From positions 1-64,000 of the forward strand of contig DATGHL010000023.1 in NCBI GenBank assembly GCA_035308025.1: DNA of 64,000 nt, read 5' to 3'. This stretch comes from Candidatus Binataceae bacterium. Its GTDB lineage: Bacteria > Desulfobacterota > Binatia > Binatales > Binataceae. The position numbers were made by a program, and so were the translations under genes. The notes beneath the pieces are model-generated. The model ran no database searches, was not told the origin of the DNA, and saw nothing but the letters and a program-made list of their open reading frames with translations. Positions 6,481 through 14,629 of the stretch are shown piece by piece; the first letter of the stretch is position 1; every line of letters begins with the position of its first letter.

Positions 6481-7488
6481 CTACGCGCTCAGTTCGAGCA
6501 TCCGTTCGAGCGCGCGGCGGGCGCCCTCGCGAACTTCCTCCGAGAGCGTGATCTCGTAGCGCAGATGCTCAAGCGAGTCACGCGTGCCCTCGAGGGTGAT
6601 CATCTTCATATAGCGGCAGAGCTTGCAGGCCTTATAAAAATGTTTTTCCGGAATCTCCATCAACAAGCGATCGGACAACCCGCACTCAGTCACAATCAGG
6701 AATTTGTCTGCCGGGCTTTCCTGCGCATAACGAACCATCGCGCTGGTCGAAAGCACCGCGTCGGCCAACGCCAGCACATCCTTGCGGCACTCCGGATGAG
6801 CCAGCACGACAAGCCCGGGGATGCCGCTTCGCACCTTCTCTACCTCTTCCGCGGTTATCTGATGATGGACGTAACAGTTACCGTCCCATGAAATTATCCG
6901 CTTGCGGGTCTGGGTCTGAACATAGTTGGCGAGATTCTGATCGGGCACGAACAGGATATTCTCGGAATCGATCGCGTTGACGATTTGCGCGGCGTTGGCC
7001 GAGGTGCAGCAGGCGTCGGAGAGCGCCTTCACGTCGGCCGTGCAGTTCACGTAAGAGACCACTTTCAGGTCCGGATAAAGCTCGACCAGCTCCGCCTTGC
7101 GCTCGGCCAGCGCCTCGGCCGTAACGGCGTCAGCCAGCGAGCATCCCGCGCGCAAATCCGGAATCAGCACCTTGCGCTCGGGATTGAAGACCTTGGCGGT
7201 CTCGGCCATGAAATGCACTCCGCAAAAAACGATGACGTCGGCATTGCGCACCTCGCGGGCCTTGCGGGCCAGCTCCAGCGAATCGCCAATAAAGTCCGCC
7301 ACCTCGAAAATTTCCGGCCGCTGATAGTTGTGCGCCAGCACCACCGCCTGGCGCTCGGCCTTGAGTCGATGGATTTCCGCGATCGTATCAACGTACTGGT
7401 CGCAGAGTTCGACTGTGTAGGCCGAGTCGTGCAGGACCCCCAGCTTGCGATGGAGCGCGGCGCCGTCGATAACAGTTTGCAGGTTCAT
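6481..7488 (-). CDS. nadA: Quinolinate synthase
   Basis: 335 residues from ATG 7488 (GAGAGG upstream at normal spacing); a longer start at 7557 would run into the palindromic control site and is rejected. NadA condenses iminoaspartate with dihydroxyacetone phosphate to quinolinate in NAD synthesis, using a 4Fe-4S cluster. Visible motifs: AHNYQRPEIFEVADFIGDSL, FCGVHFMAETAK (first cluster Cys region), PDLRAGCSLAD, SYVNCTADVKA and TECGL near the C-terminus. nrtR follows in the same transcript. NadB and NadC are not in the window. Confidence 0.95.
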   Translation of the reverse strand: MNLQTVIDGAALHRKLGVLHDSAYTVELCDQYVDTIAEIHRLKAERQAVVLAHNYQRPEIFEVADFIGDSLELARKAREVRNADVIVFCGVHFMAETAKVFNPERKVLIPDLRAGCSLADAVTAEALAERKAELVELYPDLKVVSYVNCTADVKALSDACCTSANAAQIVNAIDSENILFVPDQNLANYVQTQTRKRIISWDGNCYVHHQITAEEVEKVRSGIPGLVVLAHPECRKDVLALADAVLSTSAMVRYAQESPADKFLIVTECGLSDRLLMEIPEKHFYKACKLCRYMKMITLEGTRDSLEHLRYEITLSEEVREGARRALERMLELSA

Positions 7489-7550
7489 CGCTATATCCTC
7501 TCGCTTTCGGCCTCTCCACTCCGTTCCATCAGCGGAAACCTGCCGACTTT

Positions 7551-7597
7551 GCGTCAATCTGACGCTTATGCTAACAGTCTCGCGGCACTTCCTGCAA
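7551..7597 (-). promoter_or_regulatory. nadA promoter with overlapping 15-bp palindrome
   Basis: On the minus strand a -35 like TTGCAG (7597-7592) and a -10 like TAGCAT (7573-7568) are separated by 18 bases. Two bases after the -10 lies the perfect palindrome GCGTCAGATTGACGC (7565-7551; arms GCGTCA/TGACGC), which covers the expected transcription start. That is where a repressor would act. NrtR, encoded just downstream of nadA, is the obvious candidate ligand, but this is inferred from position. Confidence 0.55.
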
Positions 7598-7651
7598 CCG
7601 CACGAACATCAGCGCGGCCCGGTTCCATTTGGAGATCGGTGCGGTGCGGCG

Positions 7652-8013
7652 CTGGGTGAGATACAAAATCGGCTGTTTCAGTTCTCGTTCAATAGCTCGC
7701 TGAACGTTGATTTCCAAGGTTCACGGGTGATCTCGGACGGTGGTTTGATTCTGGTGCGCGAGTTGGACGGAGGTGCGGCTCTGGGTGAGTGTCATCGCCT
7801 ACGACCTCGGCAATCTATGGCGGCGACTGGCGCGGACCGCTCCGAGCGGGAAGTGGTTGCTCGCGAGCTTGCAGCAGCGGTTGGTAAAGACTGGCGGACG
7901 GCTCATCCAACATGCGCGTACTACTGGTTGCTGCAGTCGGAGAGCCATCTGACGCGCGGCGGCTGTTCGCGGGCATGCTGGCGAAGATCGCGATGCTGCC
8001 GTCGGCGAGATAA
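7652..8013 (+). pseudogene. IS1380-family transposase remnant, internally deleted
   Basis: The plus strand reads LGEIQNRLFQFS, then VDFQGSRVISDGGLILVREL (about 7652-7789), the N-terminus of IS1380-type transposases. It then jumps directly to VIAYDLGNLWRRLARTAPSG, LLASLQQRLVKTGGRLIQHA and LLQSESHLT, RRLFAGMLAKIAMLPS, stop at 8013, which is the C-terminus of the same family. The catalytic middle, about 350 residues, is gone. The C-terminal part needs at least two frame changes. The usual start Met is replaced by CTG. It is a dead fragment. Terminal repeats were not identified. Confidence 0.8.
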
Positions 8014-8310
8014 AGTTAGCGCAAAGCAGAGCAAATTTCGATGACGACGCCGGGGATGCAGGGACAAGTGTCGCCAGAATCGATAGAGAAACGGCATTTT
8101 CAGCCGTCGGAGCCCGTCGGACGCGAAACCGGCCCCTCCCCACACTACTGAGAGCACTGCGGCACAAAAGCGGCTAAAGCCTTGCCGCGAAAACAGTTTC
8201 GAGCTATAGAACGGCTCGGAATTGGAAAGGCAAAAAGAAAATGCCGGTATAAACTTAAAATCGCAGTTCTATGGCTGGGCAGTATCGCCGAGGAAACAGG
8301 AGCTTAGCGA

Positions 8311-9714: not shown

Positions 9715-9722
9715 CTAATACT
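9715..9722. repeat. 8-bp target site duplication, left copy
   Basis: CTAATACT immediately precedes the left terminal repeat and is repeated exactly at 12102-12109 after the right one. Eight-base duplications are what IS1595-family elements generate. Confidence 0.85.
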
Positions 9723-9747
9723 GGTAATTATCCCCTTGACGGCCGTA
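9723..9747 (+). repeat. Left terminal inverted repeat of the IS1595 transposon
   Basis: 25 bp starting with GG. It matches the reverse complement of 12077-12101 at 22 of 25 positions, the inner 19 bases (TATCCCCTTGACGGCCGTA) being identical. It contains TTGACG, the -35 box of the transposase promoter. Confidence 0.9.
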
Positions 9748-9764
9748 TTCTGATTTGCTAGATT
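9736..9764 (+). promoter_or_regulatory. Transposase promoter, -35 inside the terminal repeat
   Basis: TTGACG (9736-9741), a 17-base spacer, then TAGATT (9759-9764). The start of transcription would fall at about 9771, next to the ATG at 9772, so the message would be essentially leaderless. No Shine-Dalgarno sequence is present, which agrees. Confidence 0.6.
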
Positions 9765-9771
9765 GATCGGT

Positions 9772-10707
9772 ATGAGCAAGGTCAATCGCAACAATCCGAT
9801 TCGGTCTGGCGCTTCTGAAAGCACCTATTCTCGCATGGAATTCGAGCGGCAATTCCCTGATGACGCAACGTGCCTCGAATTCTTGGTTGAGAAGCTTTAT
9901 CCAAGCGGCATCTATTGCTCTAAATGCGAGAAGGTCACGAAGCATCATCGCGAAAGCAAACGACCAGCTTACAAGTGCCAGCATTGCGGACGACATGAGC
10001 ATCCGATGCGCGGCACGATATTCGAGAATTCGGCTACCTCGCTCAAGCTCTGGTTCACAGCGATCTTCTTGATGTCGGCCACTCGATGCGGCATTAGCGC
10101 AAAGCAGCTTGAGCGAGAGCTCGGCGTTACCTACAAATGCGCGTGGCGTATCTTCAAACAAGTCCGTTCGATGCTCGATGAAGATGATAGCCCCAAGCTG
10201 TCGGGCAAAATTGAAATGGACGAAAGCTTTTTCGGCGGCTTGGAAAAAAACAAACACGCGAATAAGCGCCAACACCTTGGGACGGGCGGAACGGGCAAAG
10301 CCGCCGTTTTTGGCATGGTTGAACGTAAGGGTCGCGTGGTCGCGAAGGTCGTCCCGAACACTGGCAGCGCCTCGCTTATGCCTCATGTCATCGAGCGTAC
10401 GATGCCCACGAGCACAGTTTTTACCGATGAATGGGTCGCTTACAACCCGCTTGAACGGCTCGGCTACCAGCACAAACGCGTTCACCACGCGACCAAGGTC
10501 TACGTCTCTGGCGACGCGCACACGAACACTATCGAAGGATTCTGGAGTCTCACTAAGAACGGTATTCGTGGCGTTTATCATAACGTTGGACGCGACTACT
10601 TGCAGAGCTATCTGGACGAATATGCCTTCCGGTTCAATCGTCGTCCGAGTCTTGGGCGACACAATATGTTTGCGGCATTTGTTTCACGCATTAAGAAATC
10701 CGCTTAG
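9772..10707 (+). CDS. IS1595-family transposase
   Basis: 311 residues from ATG 9772; a TTG at 9763 is possible but would lie in the promoter. The N-terminal zinc ribbon has C49-x2-C52 and C69-x2-C72. The ISXO2/IS1595 catalytic domain follows: EMDESFFGG with D150, then FTDEWVAY with D219, and HTNTIEGFWS with N252/E255, the family's D-D-N/E set. The C-terminus has YLDEYAFRFNRR, typical of the family. It would cut and join the inverted repeats at 9723-9747 and 12077-12101. The frame is intact. Confidence 0.95.
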   Translation: MSKVNRNNPIRSGASESTYSRMEFERQFPDDATCLEFLVEKLYPSGIYCSKCEKVTKHHRESKRPAYKCQHCGRHEHPMRGTIFENSATSLKLWFTAIFLMSATRCGISAKQLERELGVTYKCAWRIFKQVRSMLDEDDSPKLSGKIEMDESFFGGLEKNKHANKRQHLGTGGTGKAAVFGMVERKGRVVAKVVPNTGSASLMPHVIERTMPTSTVFTDEWVAYNPLERLGYQHKRVHHATKVYVSGDAHTNTIEGFWSLTKNGIRGVYHNVGRDYLQSYLDEYAFRFNRRPSLGRHNMFAAFVSRIKKSA

Positions 10708-10720
10708 AGAGGAAATTCTC

Positions 10721-10945
10721 ATGGCATTGGAAACGTTTGAACGCCAGTTACTTACAGATGCAACAGAGGCAATTGGCAGCATGTCACTAGTCTTGAGCGC
10801 CGTGATAAGTGTCCTTGGGCAAGATGTTACCAACTTGAAGCCGCGACTACTCCACGCCCTTACTACTAGCTCTAATGATTTCAGTGCCATCGGCGATATG
10901 GAGCGAATGCTCCGTCACGCCCGGACTTTCATCGATTCGATTTAA
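10721..10945 (+). CDS. Small passenger protein of unknown function
   Basis: 74 residues; GAGGAAA lies about 6 bases before ATG 10721, 13 bp after the transposase stop. Composition suggests a small helical soluble protein (ETFERQLLTDATEAIGSM at the start, DMERMLRHARTFIDSI at the end). No family recognised. It is co-oriented with the transposase and probably co-transcribed. A longer frame reading into it from inside the transposase gene is a shadow. Confidence 0.6.
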   Translation: MALETFERQLLTDATEAIGSMSLVLSAVISVLGQDVTNLKPRLLHALTTSSNDFSAIGDMERMLRHARTFIDSI

Positions 10946-11025
10946 TTTAGCGAGACCATCTCGGAGAGGTTTGAGCCAAATCGCAATTCGGCCAACTAAT
11001 TGGTTGGAATTCGTATCGTCTTTGT

Positions 11026-12000
11026 TCATTTCTTTTCTCGCTTCTGTATGGCCTTCGCTAGGTCGTTAAAGAACCTCCCCTTATTGGGATGTTCTGATAC
11101 ATCCTTATCCCGTGACTTGCGTGACGGCTTGGGTTTAGATTCTTCCATCGCCGTTTCAACAGGCTTATCGTCGTCTCGCTTCTTCATCGCTTCTACAATC
11201 CTTTTCTCGAATTCTACTAGTTTAGGTTGATTGAGAATTTCGAGAATTTTGGTTGACGGGACAACCATAGAAATTCCAGTATGCCATTTTGTAGCGCCCG
11301 AAGTAGCACCTTCGGCGTTTGTCGGATAATAACCATGCACTAGACCAAGCAAATACATATCGCCCAGTGCCATCCCAATTTCGGGGTCAAATGTTGTCCG
11401 AGAGCGGCGCAGCGCCGATACACCTACAGTTTGCCGAACAATCACCGGCGATCCGCTTAGGCCCCCGAGCGAGAGCGCTTCGACCAAATGTAAGAGCGCG
11501 TCACTGTAATTTCGCGTCGGAATAAGCTCATTCGCCATCATGGCGATATGGCCATGTCGAACAATTGGAGTTACTTGCGCCCTTCCTGCCCATTCGCGGA
11601 AAAGGCCGACTATAAAAACTTCGTCTCCTATGCCAATTCCTATCAGATCAAGATTTACTTCCGTAATGAATCGGCTAACTGGAAAGGTTGCGGTCCGGCC
11701 ACGCAAGCCCCAAGGAAAGACAGCAGCATCGACAGAACTATCCGTCGGGTGATACCACCATTTGTGTTGAGGCTGTTGACTCAGTTGGACATGCGATTGC
11801 CCAGCCCTATCATTAAATCTTATTGCAAAAGGCTGGTTGAGCTTAGACGCAACATGATGAGCGGTTATGAGATAGATGGCACCTCCAGGGGTGCGATTTA
11901 GATCAACAAGAAAGCCAGTACCCTTTGCGACAAAGGTACCGCCCGGCGTTTGATAGCCGAGATAAACAATAGATCGGAGGGCAGCATCGGGTACGCGCAT
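11026..12000 (-). CDS. Trypsin-like serine protease carried by the transposon
   Basis: 324 residues from ATG 12000 (GAGG 5 bases upstream); a TTG at 12060 would add 20 residues. A chymotrypsin-fold triad is visible: H49 in ITAHHV, D91 in SSVDAAVF, S183 in GLSGSPVI. No signal peptide or TM helix is seen, so it is probably cytosolic, unlike DegP-type proteases, and it has no PDZ domain. The last 60 residues are Lys/Glu-rich and probably disordered. As a transposon passenger it could serve defence, stress or element maintenance; nothing in the sequence decides this. Confidence 0.8.
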   Translation of the reverse strand: MRVPDAALRSIVYLGYQTPGGTFVAKGTGFLVDLNRTPGGAIYLITAHHVASKLNQPFAIRFNDRAGQSHVQLSQQPQHKWWYHPTDSSVDAAVFPWGLRGRTATFPVSRFITEVNLDLIGIGIGDEVFIVGLFREWAGRAQVTPIVRHGHIAMMANELIPTRNYSDALLHLVEALSLGGLSGSPVIVRQTVGVSALRRSRTTFDPEIGMALGDMYLLGLVHGYYPTNAEGATSGATKWHTGISMVVPSTKILEILNQPKLVEFEKRIVEAMKKRDDDKPVETAMEESKPKPSRKSRDKDVSEHPNKGRFFNDLAKAIQKREKK

Positions 12001-12059
12001 AGTCGCCTCACGCGATATGCGCGGCGCGACAGCATCTAGTCCGCGAAATCGCAGGGCCA

Positions 12060-12088
12060 AGGCTAGCCCCTCCCCTTACGGCCGTCAA
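12060..12088 (-). promoter_or_regulatory. Possible protease promoter in the right terminal repeat
   Basis: Mirror image of the left end: TTGACG (12088-12083) inside the repeat, 17-base spacer, then TAGCCT (12065-12060). The -10 is weaker than at the left end. It would place transcription start about 50 bases before the ATG at 12000. Confidence 0.4.
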
Positions 12089-12101
12089 GGGGATAGGTTC
12101 C
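12077..12101 (-). repeat. Right terminal inverted repeat of the IS1595 transposon
   Basis: 25 bp. The reverse complement begins GGAACC and continues with the same 19-base core as the left end (22 of 25 identical overall). Confidence 0.9.
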
Positions 12102-12109
12102 CTAATACT
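12102..12109. repeat. 8-bp target site duplication, right copy
   Basis: CTAATACT, identical to 9715-9722. Its first three bases are the stop codon (TAG on the minus strand) of the lipoprotein gene, so the insertion did not alter that protein. Confidence 0.85.
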
Positions 12110-12833
12110 GGCCCTGCACAATCGGCTGTACGGTAATCTTGTCTTGCAGATTTTCGAGCGCCGCCTGCGCGCCTTGCGCGGTGAGATCATTGGCCCGCAC
12201 CCAGCGGCCGTTGTTCGCAATAAATGTTGGCAGGTCGAAAACGTTGTCACTTAGCGACTTCTGTTCCTTCGCGAAATTCGCCGTCCAGACAATTTGTTGA
12301 GATTTCTCGTCAACAAACTTCAACGTGAAAGCAACCGACGCCGGCGACTGCGCCGCATAGTCGTAACCGACGCGCTCCTTATAGTGATGCACCGAACCGT
12401 AGAGTACGCCGTCCGCGCCGAGCTTGCGGCCAAGTTCCAGGGCGTTCTGATCCATATCCGCTGCGGTCGTCGGCGGCATCTGCTGCAGGATGTTTGCGAC
12501 GTCCTCTTGAGTCACGACGGTCCAGCCGCCGAGAATTGTCGCGCGGGCGTAGACTTCCGCCGTCGCCGATTCGGTCGCACCGGGCGCCAGGTTATGCTCG
12601 ATCTTGTCCGGCTCCTCAATCAACGGCATCACAGCGATCTTGTGCACGATGACCGTCTTGCTCGAACGCACCGCGTGGATCTCGAGCCCGGGCGTGCCGT
12701 GAAATCCGGGCAGGATGTGCGCGACGTTGCCCATTTCCTGATACTCGCTGGTCTCCTGCAGACGCTCGCACGCCGCGAGCGCGAAGACCAACAGCAGCGC
12801 ACCGATCAGGCGCACCCATGACGACGGCGTCAC
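12102..12833 (-). CDS. Lipoprotein of the GNA1162/LpoB-like fold
   Basis: 243 residues from GTG 12833, whose GTGA overlaps the aspS stop by four bases (coupled translation). Signal peptide about 4-20 with lipobox LAAC. The mature part contains IAVMPLIEEPD, EVYARATILGGWTVV, LGRKLGADGVLYGSVHHY and VAFTLKFVDEKSQQIVW. These are typical of envelope lipoproteins with a TolB-N/CsgG-like fold (GNA1162, LpoB, DUF799). Members help assemble or regulate envelope machines; the partner here is unknown. The gene ends inside the transposon's target duplication. Confidence 0.75.
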   Translation of the reverse strand: MTPSSWVRLIGALLLVFALAACERLQETSEYQEMGNVAHILPGFHGTPGLEIHAVRSSKTVIVHKIAVMPLIEEPDKIEHNLAPGATESATAEVYARATILGGWTVVTQEDVANILQQMPPTTAADMDQNALELGRKLGADGVLYGSVHHYKERVGYDYAAQSPASVAFTLKFVDEKSQQIVWTANFAKEQKSLSDNVFDLPTFIANNGRWVRANDLTAQGAQAALENLQDKITVQPIVQGQY

Positions 12834-14629
12834 AGCGCCACCTTGATCGACAGCTCTTTTAGCTGATGCGCCTCGACCTCTGAGGGCGCGCCACTCATCG
12901 GATCGACCGCCTTCTGCGTTTTGGGAAAGGCCATCACGTCGCGCAGCGAGTTGGCGCCGCAAACCATCATCGCGATCCGGTCCACCCCGAACGCGATTCC
13001 GCCGTGAGGCGGCGCGCCGTATCCAAGAGCGTCGATCAGAAAGCCGAATCTGCTCACCGCCTCCTCGCGCCCGAGTCCGAGAAGCTCGAAAACCTTGAGT
13101 TGAAGCTCGGGGTTGTGGATACGAATCGAGCCGCCGCCCATCTCCTGTCCGTTCAACACCAGGTCATAGGCCAGAGCGCGGGCTTGCGCGGGATCGCTTT
13201 CGAGCAAATGCAAATCCTCAGGCCGGGGAGCGGTAAACGGATGGTTAACCGACGTCATACGCCGTTGTTCCTCGCTGTATTCGAAGAGCGGGAAATCCAC
13301 GATCCAGAGAAACTTGAGCGCGGAGGCGTCGCGCAGCTCGAACTTGCCCGCAAGCTGCAATCGCAAGTCGCCGAGAATCGGCCGCACCAACGCTTGCGGC
13401 CCGGCCATGATAAGCAACGTGCCGCCCGCCGCGAGTCCCGCCGCGCGCTCCGCAGCTTGGCGCTCCGCCGCGCTGATATGGCGCGCGAGCGGTCCCTGCC
13501 ATCCGCTTTCGACGGTTTTGGCCCAGGCCAGACCGAGACTCTTTTGCGCGCGCAGCATCTCGACCAGCTCGTCGAGCTCGCGCCGCGAGAGTTGATACTC
13601 GGCGGGCAGCGCGAGCGCGTAAATCGATTCGCCGCGCTCCAGCACTTCCGCGAAAACCTTAAACGAGGTTCCGGCAAAGGCGGCAGTCAGATTCTTCAGC
13701 TCGAGCTCAAACCGCAGGTCCGGCTTGTCGGAGCCGAACCGCTCCTGCGCTTCTTCAAACGGCATCCGAATGAATGGCGGCGCGAGTTTGACGCCCAGCG
13801 CGTATTCGTAGATCGACGCCATCATGCCTTCGGCGACGCCCATGATGTCGTCGAGTCGCGGCCCGGTCATCTCGATATCGATCTGGCTGAACTCGGGCTG
13901 GCGGTTCGCGCGCAAGTCTTCATCGCGAAAACATCGCGCGATCTGGTAGTAGCGATCGAAGCCGCCGACCATCAGCAGTTGCTTGAACAACTGCGGCGAT
14001 TGCGGGAGCGCGTAGAATTTGCCGGGATTGACACGGCTCGGCACCAGGTAATCGCGCGCCCCTTCGGGCGTCGCCCGGCACAGGATCGGCGTTTCGACCT
14101 CGATAAAGCCCTGCCCGTCGAGCCACGCGCGCGCCCCGCGTAGCGCCTGATGACGCCGGCGCAAATTATCCTGCATCTCGGGCCGGCGCAGATCGAGATA
14201 ACGGTACTTGAGCCGCACCTCCTCCGCGGTGTTCTCCGCCCCAGCGCCCAACTGAAAGGGCAGCGCCGCCGACGCGCTCAGGATCTCCGCCGACGCGACG
14301 ATGATTTCAATTTCGCCGGTCGGCAACTGCGGATTGATCGTATTGTCGGAGCGCCTGACGACCCAGCCCTTGGCCGCGAGATAGAACTCGGCGCGCGCCG
14401 CCCCCGCGGCCGCACGCGCTCCTGCCGCCTCGCTCTCGGGCTTGAAGACGAGCTGCACGATCCCTTCGCGATCGCGCAAATCGATGAAGATCACGCCGCC
14501 GTGGTCGCGGCGCGCCGCGACCCAGCCCCAGAGCGCGACTTCGCGGCCTTCATCGGTTGCGCGCAGCGTTCCGCAGTAATGACTGCGTGGCCACGGCGGA
14601 ATCGGGGTGTATGAATCAGTGGGCGACAT
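12830..14629 (-). CDS. aspS: Aspartyl-tRNA synthetase
   Basis: 599 residues, normal for the bacterial-type enzyme. It has an N-terminal OB anticodon-binding domain (VALWGWVAARRDHGGVIFIDLRD), class II motif 2 (FRDEDLRANRQPEFSQIDIE), a GAD insert and motif 3 (GGIAFGVDRIAMM). It charges tRNA-Asp; whether it also charges tRNA-Asn (non-discriminating) cannot be decided from here. hisS lies 48 bp upstream and the lipoprotein gene overlaps its end, so the three probably form an operon. Confidence 0.95.
   Translation of the reverse strand: MSPTDSYTPIPPWPRSHYCGTLRATDEGREVALWGWVAARRDHGGVIFIDLRDREGIVQLVFKPESEAAGARAAAGAARAEFYLAAKGWVVRRSDNTINPQLPTGEIEIIVASAEILSASAALPFQLGAGAENTAEEVRLKYRYLDLRRPEMQDNLRRRHQALRGARAWLDGQGFIEVETPILCRATPEGARDYLVPSRVNPGKFYALPQSPQLFKQLLMVGGFDRYYQIARCFRDEDLRANRQPEFSQIDIEMTGPRLDDIMGVAEGMMASIYEYALGVKLAPPFIRMPFEEAQERFGSDKPDLRFELELKNLTAAFAGTSFKVFAEVLERGESIYALALPAEYQLSRRELDELVEMLRAQKSLGLAWAKTVESGWQGPLARHISAAERQAAERAAGLAAGGTLLIMAGPQALVRPILGDLRLQLAGKFELRDASALKFLWIVDFPLFEYSEEQRRMTSVNHPFTAPRPEDLHLLESDPAQARALAYDLVLNGQEMGGGSIRIHNPELQLKVFELLGLGREEAVSRFGFLIDALGYGAPPHGGIAFGVDRIAMMVCGANSLRDVMAFPKTQKAVDPMSGAPSEVEAHQLKELSIKVAL

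Follow-up and report, generated by a model that had tools for sequence, protein, structure and literature searches.

A trypsin-like protease gene as passenger of a probable IS1595-family transporter insertion sequence in Binataceae

Introduction

A locus on contig DATGHL010000023.1 of Candidatus Binataceae bacterium raises the question of why a serine protease gene lies between the ends of a small transposon, and whether it belongs there as exchangeable cargo. The IS1595 family reportedly includes transporter-IS members, as Siguier, Gagnevin and Chandler are said to have described in 2009 (Res Microbiol 160:232). The sequence-only reading from which we started had likewise taken IS1595 elements with passenger genes to be a known class. 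Transporter IS, that is, insertion sequences with passenger genes, are indeed presented as an established kind in PMC3129680, where Siguier 2009 is cited for them. Here, we analyzed the element in the window, which is the whole stretch of 64,000 nucleotides (positions 1 to 64,000 of the contig), and compared it with its relatives. The results make it very probable that the element is an intact transporter IS (tIS) of the IS1595 family, with the protease in an exchangeable passenger slot.

An intact IS1595-family element

The earlier reading had placed an intact IS1595-family transposon at 9723-12101, with 25-bp terminal inverted repeats (TIRs) that start with GG and match at 22 of 25 bases, flanked by an 8-bp duplication, CTAATACT. 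Ends, genes and duplication were all verified. Within the TIR pair, the core TATCCCCTTGACGGCCGTA is identical at 19 of 19 positions. The features are as follows.

9715-9722, no strand: target-site duplication, left copy, 8 bp, CTAATACT, identical to 12102-12109
9723-12101: complete IS1595-family element (ends, transposase and passenger)
9723-9747, plus strand: left TIR, GGTAATTATCCCCTTGACGGCCGTA, 22/25 against the right TIR; the core also occurs in relatives
9736-9764, plus strand: predicted transposase promoter, TTGACG (9736-9741), 17 bp, TAGATT (9759-9764), from population statistics
9772-10707, plus strand: IS1595-family transposase, 311 aa, zinc ribbon and DDE domain, intact (PF12762/PF12760, NF033547)
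10721-10945, plus strand: 74-aa ORF (ORF call), 13 bases behind the transposase, preceded by GAGAGGAA
11026-12000, minus strand: trypsin-like (PA-clan) serine protease, passenger gene, 324 aa (triad H49/D91/S182, fold model)
11029-11130, minus strand: basic tail at the protease C-terminus (residues 291-324); sister elements carrying other cargo encode a homolog as a stand-alone small ORF
12060-12088, minus strand: predicted passenger promoter, TTGACG (12088-12083), 17 bp, TAGCCT (12065-12060), weak -10, from population statistics
12077-12101, minus strand: right TIR, GGAACCTATCCCCTTGACGGCCGTA on the minus strand, 22/25 against the left TIR
12102-12109, no strand: target-site duplication, right copy, CTAATACT, including the stop codon of the adjacent gene on the minus strand

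The transposase gene starts with ATG at 9772 and is free of internal stops. Its product exceeds the curated cut-offs of the Pfam families DDE_Tnp_IS1595 (PF12762, 4e-42) and Zn_ribbon_IS1595 (PF12760, 1e-7) and of the NCBIfam equivalog_domain model NF033547 for IS1595 (5e-61), in agreement with the intact transposase described previously. The DDE domain, the N-terminal zinc ribbon, the 8-bp duplication and the GG-starting TIRs place the element in the IS1595 family; the zinc ribbon is found in all IS1595 groups except IS1016 (PMC8101967). The 74-residue ORF, which had been called an orphan, is present as described and without a family match in Pfam, and a weak homolog lies within another IS1595 element (L155).

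The right target copy holds the stop codon of the minus-strand gene at 12102-12962, so that the insertion left this gene unbroken, and it is intact. The element has a GC content of 50.8% compared to 61.7% for the window. The source genome contains only one intact copy, besides one decayed relative (contig C4), which gives little indication of present transposition activity.

Sister elements with different cargo

Our search for relatives with a transposase of this lineage yielded seven, 52-71% identical to the window transposase. The trypsin-like proteases of four of them have diverged strongly, to 26-34% identity. Across the eight elements including the window, the cargo is a trypsin-like protease in five, a proteasome-like Ntn hydrolase in one and an unrelated protein in two. 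Three trypsin-type elements from other genomes of the family, L034 (2627 bp), L035 (2725 bp) and L036 (2855 bp), have matching TIRs, a convergent protease and perfect 8-bp duplications that are different in each; the L036 transposase is frameshifted. In the decayed relative on contig C4 of the source genome (L032), the transposase is 71% identical and the trypsin-like protease is broken. Since the ends, the gene order and duplications of 8 bp recur in independent relatives, the arrangement goes beyond chance. The assemblies of the relatives are recorded as Deltaproteobacteria palsa_1114/1115 and Proteobacteria Centralia_MAG_89, names that point to soil and permafrost metagenomes. A further convergent protease, in a locus of another family whose transposase is 38% identical (L076), was found without resolved element ends. 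Under strict N-terminal patterns, a genome-wide scan with the transposase alignment gave only four loci.

The genome of L036 harbors a second element, L056 (2145 bp), with a 64% identical transposase, the same TIRs and a duplication matching at 6 of 8 bases. Its convergent slot lacks the trypsin-like protease and encodes a protein starting MTVCIV instead. The sequence similarity of this passenger to proteasome subunits is sub-threshold (0.0026); a structure model of modest confidence (pLDDT 67.5) has proteasome and Anbu subunits as top matches, and a homolog in another IS1595 element of this genome, L048, scores above the Pfam proteasome cut-off (3e-8). L112 and L113, with transposases 56 and 52% identical to that of the window, carry a cargo family with an LDYxAW/LDHLVHA motif, identified by eye, which is seen, again by eye, in L126 of a different IS1595 lineage. 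The genes between transposase and protease are different in every element. MTVC-starting proteasome/HslV/Anbu-like Ntn hydrolases were thus observed as passengers of two IS1595 lineages (L048:3100-3972 and L056:2098-2994), and free-standing homologs occur in other genomes of the order.

Among the trypsin-type elements, pairwise identity is 58-72% for the transposases and 26-35% for the proteases. In the protease tree, the window protease groups with that of L034 (support 90/91) and those of L035, L036 and L032 form a second group (98/97), while free-standing homologs from other families fall among the transposon-borne copies. This split of the transposon-borne copies may reflect repeated acquisition of the protease or its very fast evolution.

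At the insertion site, the homologous gene in G020, a genome of the same genus, ends in VQGQY and reads CTAGTACTGTCCCTGCAC, without the element, and the element is likewise absent at the homologous gene end in G015. Across the empty site, both genomes have a gene other than the left neighbour in the window; the homology of these sites is therefore one-sided. G020 has no copy of the protease. An exact search of viral contigs for the 19-bp TIR core gave no match.

Taken together, a passenger unrelated to transposition lies between the ends of the element, and sister elements carry different cargo, as expected of a transporter IS. The test proposed with the earlier reading turned out in favor of a passenger module, as one transposase lineage with near-identical ends carries three types of cargo; gene ends without the element also exist, homologous on one side. 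The opposite case, in which the transposase stands alone between these repeats and the protease is fixed at the locus, was not seen.

Cargo is the rule among IS1595 elements of the order

Our sample comprised nearly every IS1595 transposase match of the order, and the ends were resolved for 56 elements. These elements measure 1631-4347 bp and are longer than the transposase gene alone; a perfect 8-bp target-site duplication flanks 44 of them. None has transposase-only length (roughly 1 kb) except for the decayed L052 of 1.2 kb, which is below the end-quality limit. The passengers include DUF3800 (7), HNH, GmrSD-type, DUF433 with PIN, Panacea and HARE-HTH proteins and a Clp-protease with P63C; many others are small membrane proteins with no family assignment. 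The main passenger is convergent with the transposase in 43 of 55 cases, and the distance from the right tip to the passenger start is mostly no more than about 120 nt.

We additionally observed a third protease fold as passenger, in the IS1595-type element L160:2467-3980, where a Clp-protease-like gene lies beside a P63C-domain gene. At L115, three IS1595 elements with different cargo occupy about 8 kb, and two of them share a target duplication on opposite strands (AAACAGTT/AACTGTTT), which suggests adjacent or nested insertion. A short gene with the motif ALVGWYL...ASDDPRLK, noticed by eye, occurs in L035 (5957-6211), L149 and L157, whose cargo otherwise differs; this distribution suggests shuffling of small modules.

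Predicted promoters reading inward from both ends

Of the 56 elements, 55 have a TTGAC -35 box in the left TIR and 45 have one in the right TIR; the position is fixed, and nearly all boxes lie 13 or 16 bases from the tip. Inward beyond the repeat, a TATAAT-like -10 with at least 4 of 6 matches follows at a spacing of 16-18 bp in 78% of the left ends (2-31% at eight other spacings) and in 60% of the right ends (2-18% at those other spacings). These statistics predict sigma-70-type promoters reading inward from both TIRs, and the right TIR probably provides the promoter from which the passenger is read. In the window, the -10 at the right end (TAGCCT) matches poorly. We also considered a link between right-end promoter quality and passenger orientation, and rejected it, as the right -10 did not differ between convergent and co-directional passengers (p = 1). 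Given the weak -10 of the window and the lack of an orientation effect, the promoter claim is a population result that serves as a prediction for the window.

The passenger is a trypsin-fold protease without PDZ domain or export signal

The protease gene is convergent with the transposase gene and starts with ATG at 12000; an alternative upstream TTG start at 12060 is possible. The catalytic residues His49, Asp91 and Ser182 are invariant in an alignment with 15 homologs, the nucleophile serine lying within GLSGSP. Of the previously claimed triad H49/D91/S183, His49 and Asp91 were borne out, while the serine had been numbered one too high and is Ser182 when counted from the ATG at 12000. The structure model has an overall pLDDT of 78.5, with the core mostly at 80-95; its matches to HtrA-type domains span about 190 residues, with Z scores of 18-21 and 14-21% identity. 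The chymotrypsin fold of the model and the His-Asp-Ser triad of the alignment place the protein among the PA-clan trypsin-like proteases.

The N-terminus has neither a hydrophobic export signal nor a membrane anchor, in line with the claim that the protease lacks a signal peptide. The location "cytosolic", as given before, is a prediction from this missing signal. Judging from fold model and triad, the passenger should be an active intracellular trypsin-like protease. It resembles the HtrA/Deg proteins (DegS, DegQ, AlgW) in its predicted trypsin-fold domain and conserved triad; unlike them, it has no Pfam match to a PDZ domain, no signal peptide and no membrane anchor, which sets it apart from that family, and it ends in a helical basic tail instead. 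Searches of plasmid and phage collections with the protease gave no match. A free-standing relative without an IS1595 transposase lies on contig C31 of the source genome (L033:4673-5626), with no convincing ends of a TIR-bounded element around it; such a free-standing protease is a possible source type for the cargo.

A basic peptide is conserved across the lineage

A basic peptide of about 33 residues, IPIP....FF..L.KA.+K., is common to all eight elements of the lineage. In the five trypsin-type elements it forms the C-terminus of the protease, in a shifted frame in the decayed L032. In L056, L112 and L113 it is a separate ORF of 46-55 residues beside the 3' end of the transposase gene. A profile built from the five protease tails found these ORFs among 21,469 ORFs at 3e-8 (L056), 7e-5 (L112) and 0.03 (L113), and none of about 4,900 shuffles each reached their scores. 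The tail was not detected in the other IS1595 lineages searched. In the protease model, it folds into a helix, which follows a linker of low prediction quality.

A different basic protein, also small and marked by the motif F..(F/L)..l...l.aVPKkEi, was observed in 19 IS1595 elements that belong to other lineages, among them L048, L134, L130, L144, L159, L140, L141, L119, L118 and L121. It is mostly encoded 15-180 bases behind the transposase, and no match lies outside the elements in loci with resolved elements; it may be an unrecognised accessory protein. Homology of the IPIP tail to this VPK protein is unsupported (hhalign P 0.19).

Possible roles of the protease and its tail

According to the model that we propose, the transposase, read from the left-TIR promoter, would move everything between the TIRs and create the 8-bp duplication. 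The right half would be a passenger slot read inward from the matching right-TIR promoter, as the statistics predict, so that any cargo in the slot could be expressed from a built-in promoter wherever the element lands. Here, the slot would contain an intracellular protease that has an HtrA-like trypsin fold but neither an export signal nor a PDZ domain. The protease tail would be a basic peptide of the transposon lineage, encoded by an ORF of its own in elements with other cargo. As to function, we tentatively favor as most likely a role as accessory cargo: the protease would be retained for a benefit to the host or the element during stress or in the face of invaders. The tail may serve to dock the protease, be it to DNA, to the complex that carries out transposition or to some other protein of the element, although we consider this improbable. 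Equally speculative is that the lineage peptide is an exchangeable adaptor, fused to or encoded together with trypsin-like and proteasome-like proteases in a targeted proteolysis module driven by the right-TIR promoter.

The earlier reading had suggested a useful cargo or a defence-type function. As a defence gene, the protease would kill or arrest the cell or cut an invader protein upon phage or plasmid entry, with the IS1595 element as vehicle. The profile of the PADLOC candidate PDC-S45 matches the window protease at 6e-12 over residues 24-270, and all four scanned trypsin-like passengers match it as well; GmrSD-type, DUF433/PIN, Panacea, HNH and P63C/Clp-protease genes among the order's IS1595 passengers and the fast divergence of the proteases compared to the transposases are also consistent with such a role. 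However, PDC-S45 is a computational candidate only, and among 14 control genomes its profile also matches three ordinary ones, those of B. subtilis, Caulobacter and Synechococcus, so that it may just detect the trypsin fold. Moreover, most passengers match no defence model, the element contains no partner sensor gene, and the phage and plasmid collections yielded no match to the protease. The suggestion thus remains a conjecture, and we regard defence as a possible but rather unlikely role.

The protease or its tail might instead be part of the transposition machinery, trimming or removing the transposase or another element or host protein to which the tail targets it. The restriction of the tail to this lineage, among the IS1595 lineages searched, fits this idea. 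So does the sister element in which the tail is retained although a proteasome-like fold replaces the trypsin fold, as though it were important to have proteolysis close to the tail. Yet L112 and L113 have the tail without a protease and most IS1595 elements have no protease, which indicates that it is not required; transposases are, furthermore, frameshifted in two of the protease or Ntn elements, and we find this role unlikely. Chance capture between two TIRs would make the protease a neutral hitchhiker. IS1595 elements generally capture varied genes, and the related free-standing protease is present elsewhere in the source genome. Against this stand the triad, intact across very deep divergence, and the recurrence of gene order, convergent orientation and tail fusion in several genomes, which make neutral carriage quite improbable, and we retain accessory cargo as the preferred reading.

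The element thus shares with known IS1595 members the DDE domain, the zinc ribbon, GG-starting TIRs, 8-bp duplications and passengers beside the transposase, while its lineage appears to differ in the protease passenger, the tail peptide and the double-promoter layout. In the literature searched, with partial coverage, we saw none of the following described: a protease as passenger of IS1595 elements, exchange of unrelated protease folds within one transposon lineage, the conserved tail, or double promoters. Tn3-family transposons carry toxin-antitoxin pairs in the transposition module, with reading from element promoters proposed (PMC7157771). They are similar in that cargo lies beside transposition genes and element promoters are proposed; in contrast, they have another transposase family, and here the protease cargo sits at the opposite end. 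Our reading would imply that insertion sequences, although very small, can act as cassettes with promoters of their own; in an uncultivated soil lineage, such cassettes would spread and trade genes, among them proteases that differ in fold. If the tail does target proteases, this would be a transposon-borne proteolysis system whose mechanism we did not find described; should the cargo be defensive, the element would add a minimal carrier of defence genes.

Elsewhere in the window, the ORF at 7445-8044 appears by eye to be a broken remnant of an IS1380-type transposase (NSSLNVDFQGSRVISDGGLILVREL).
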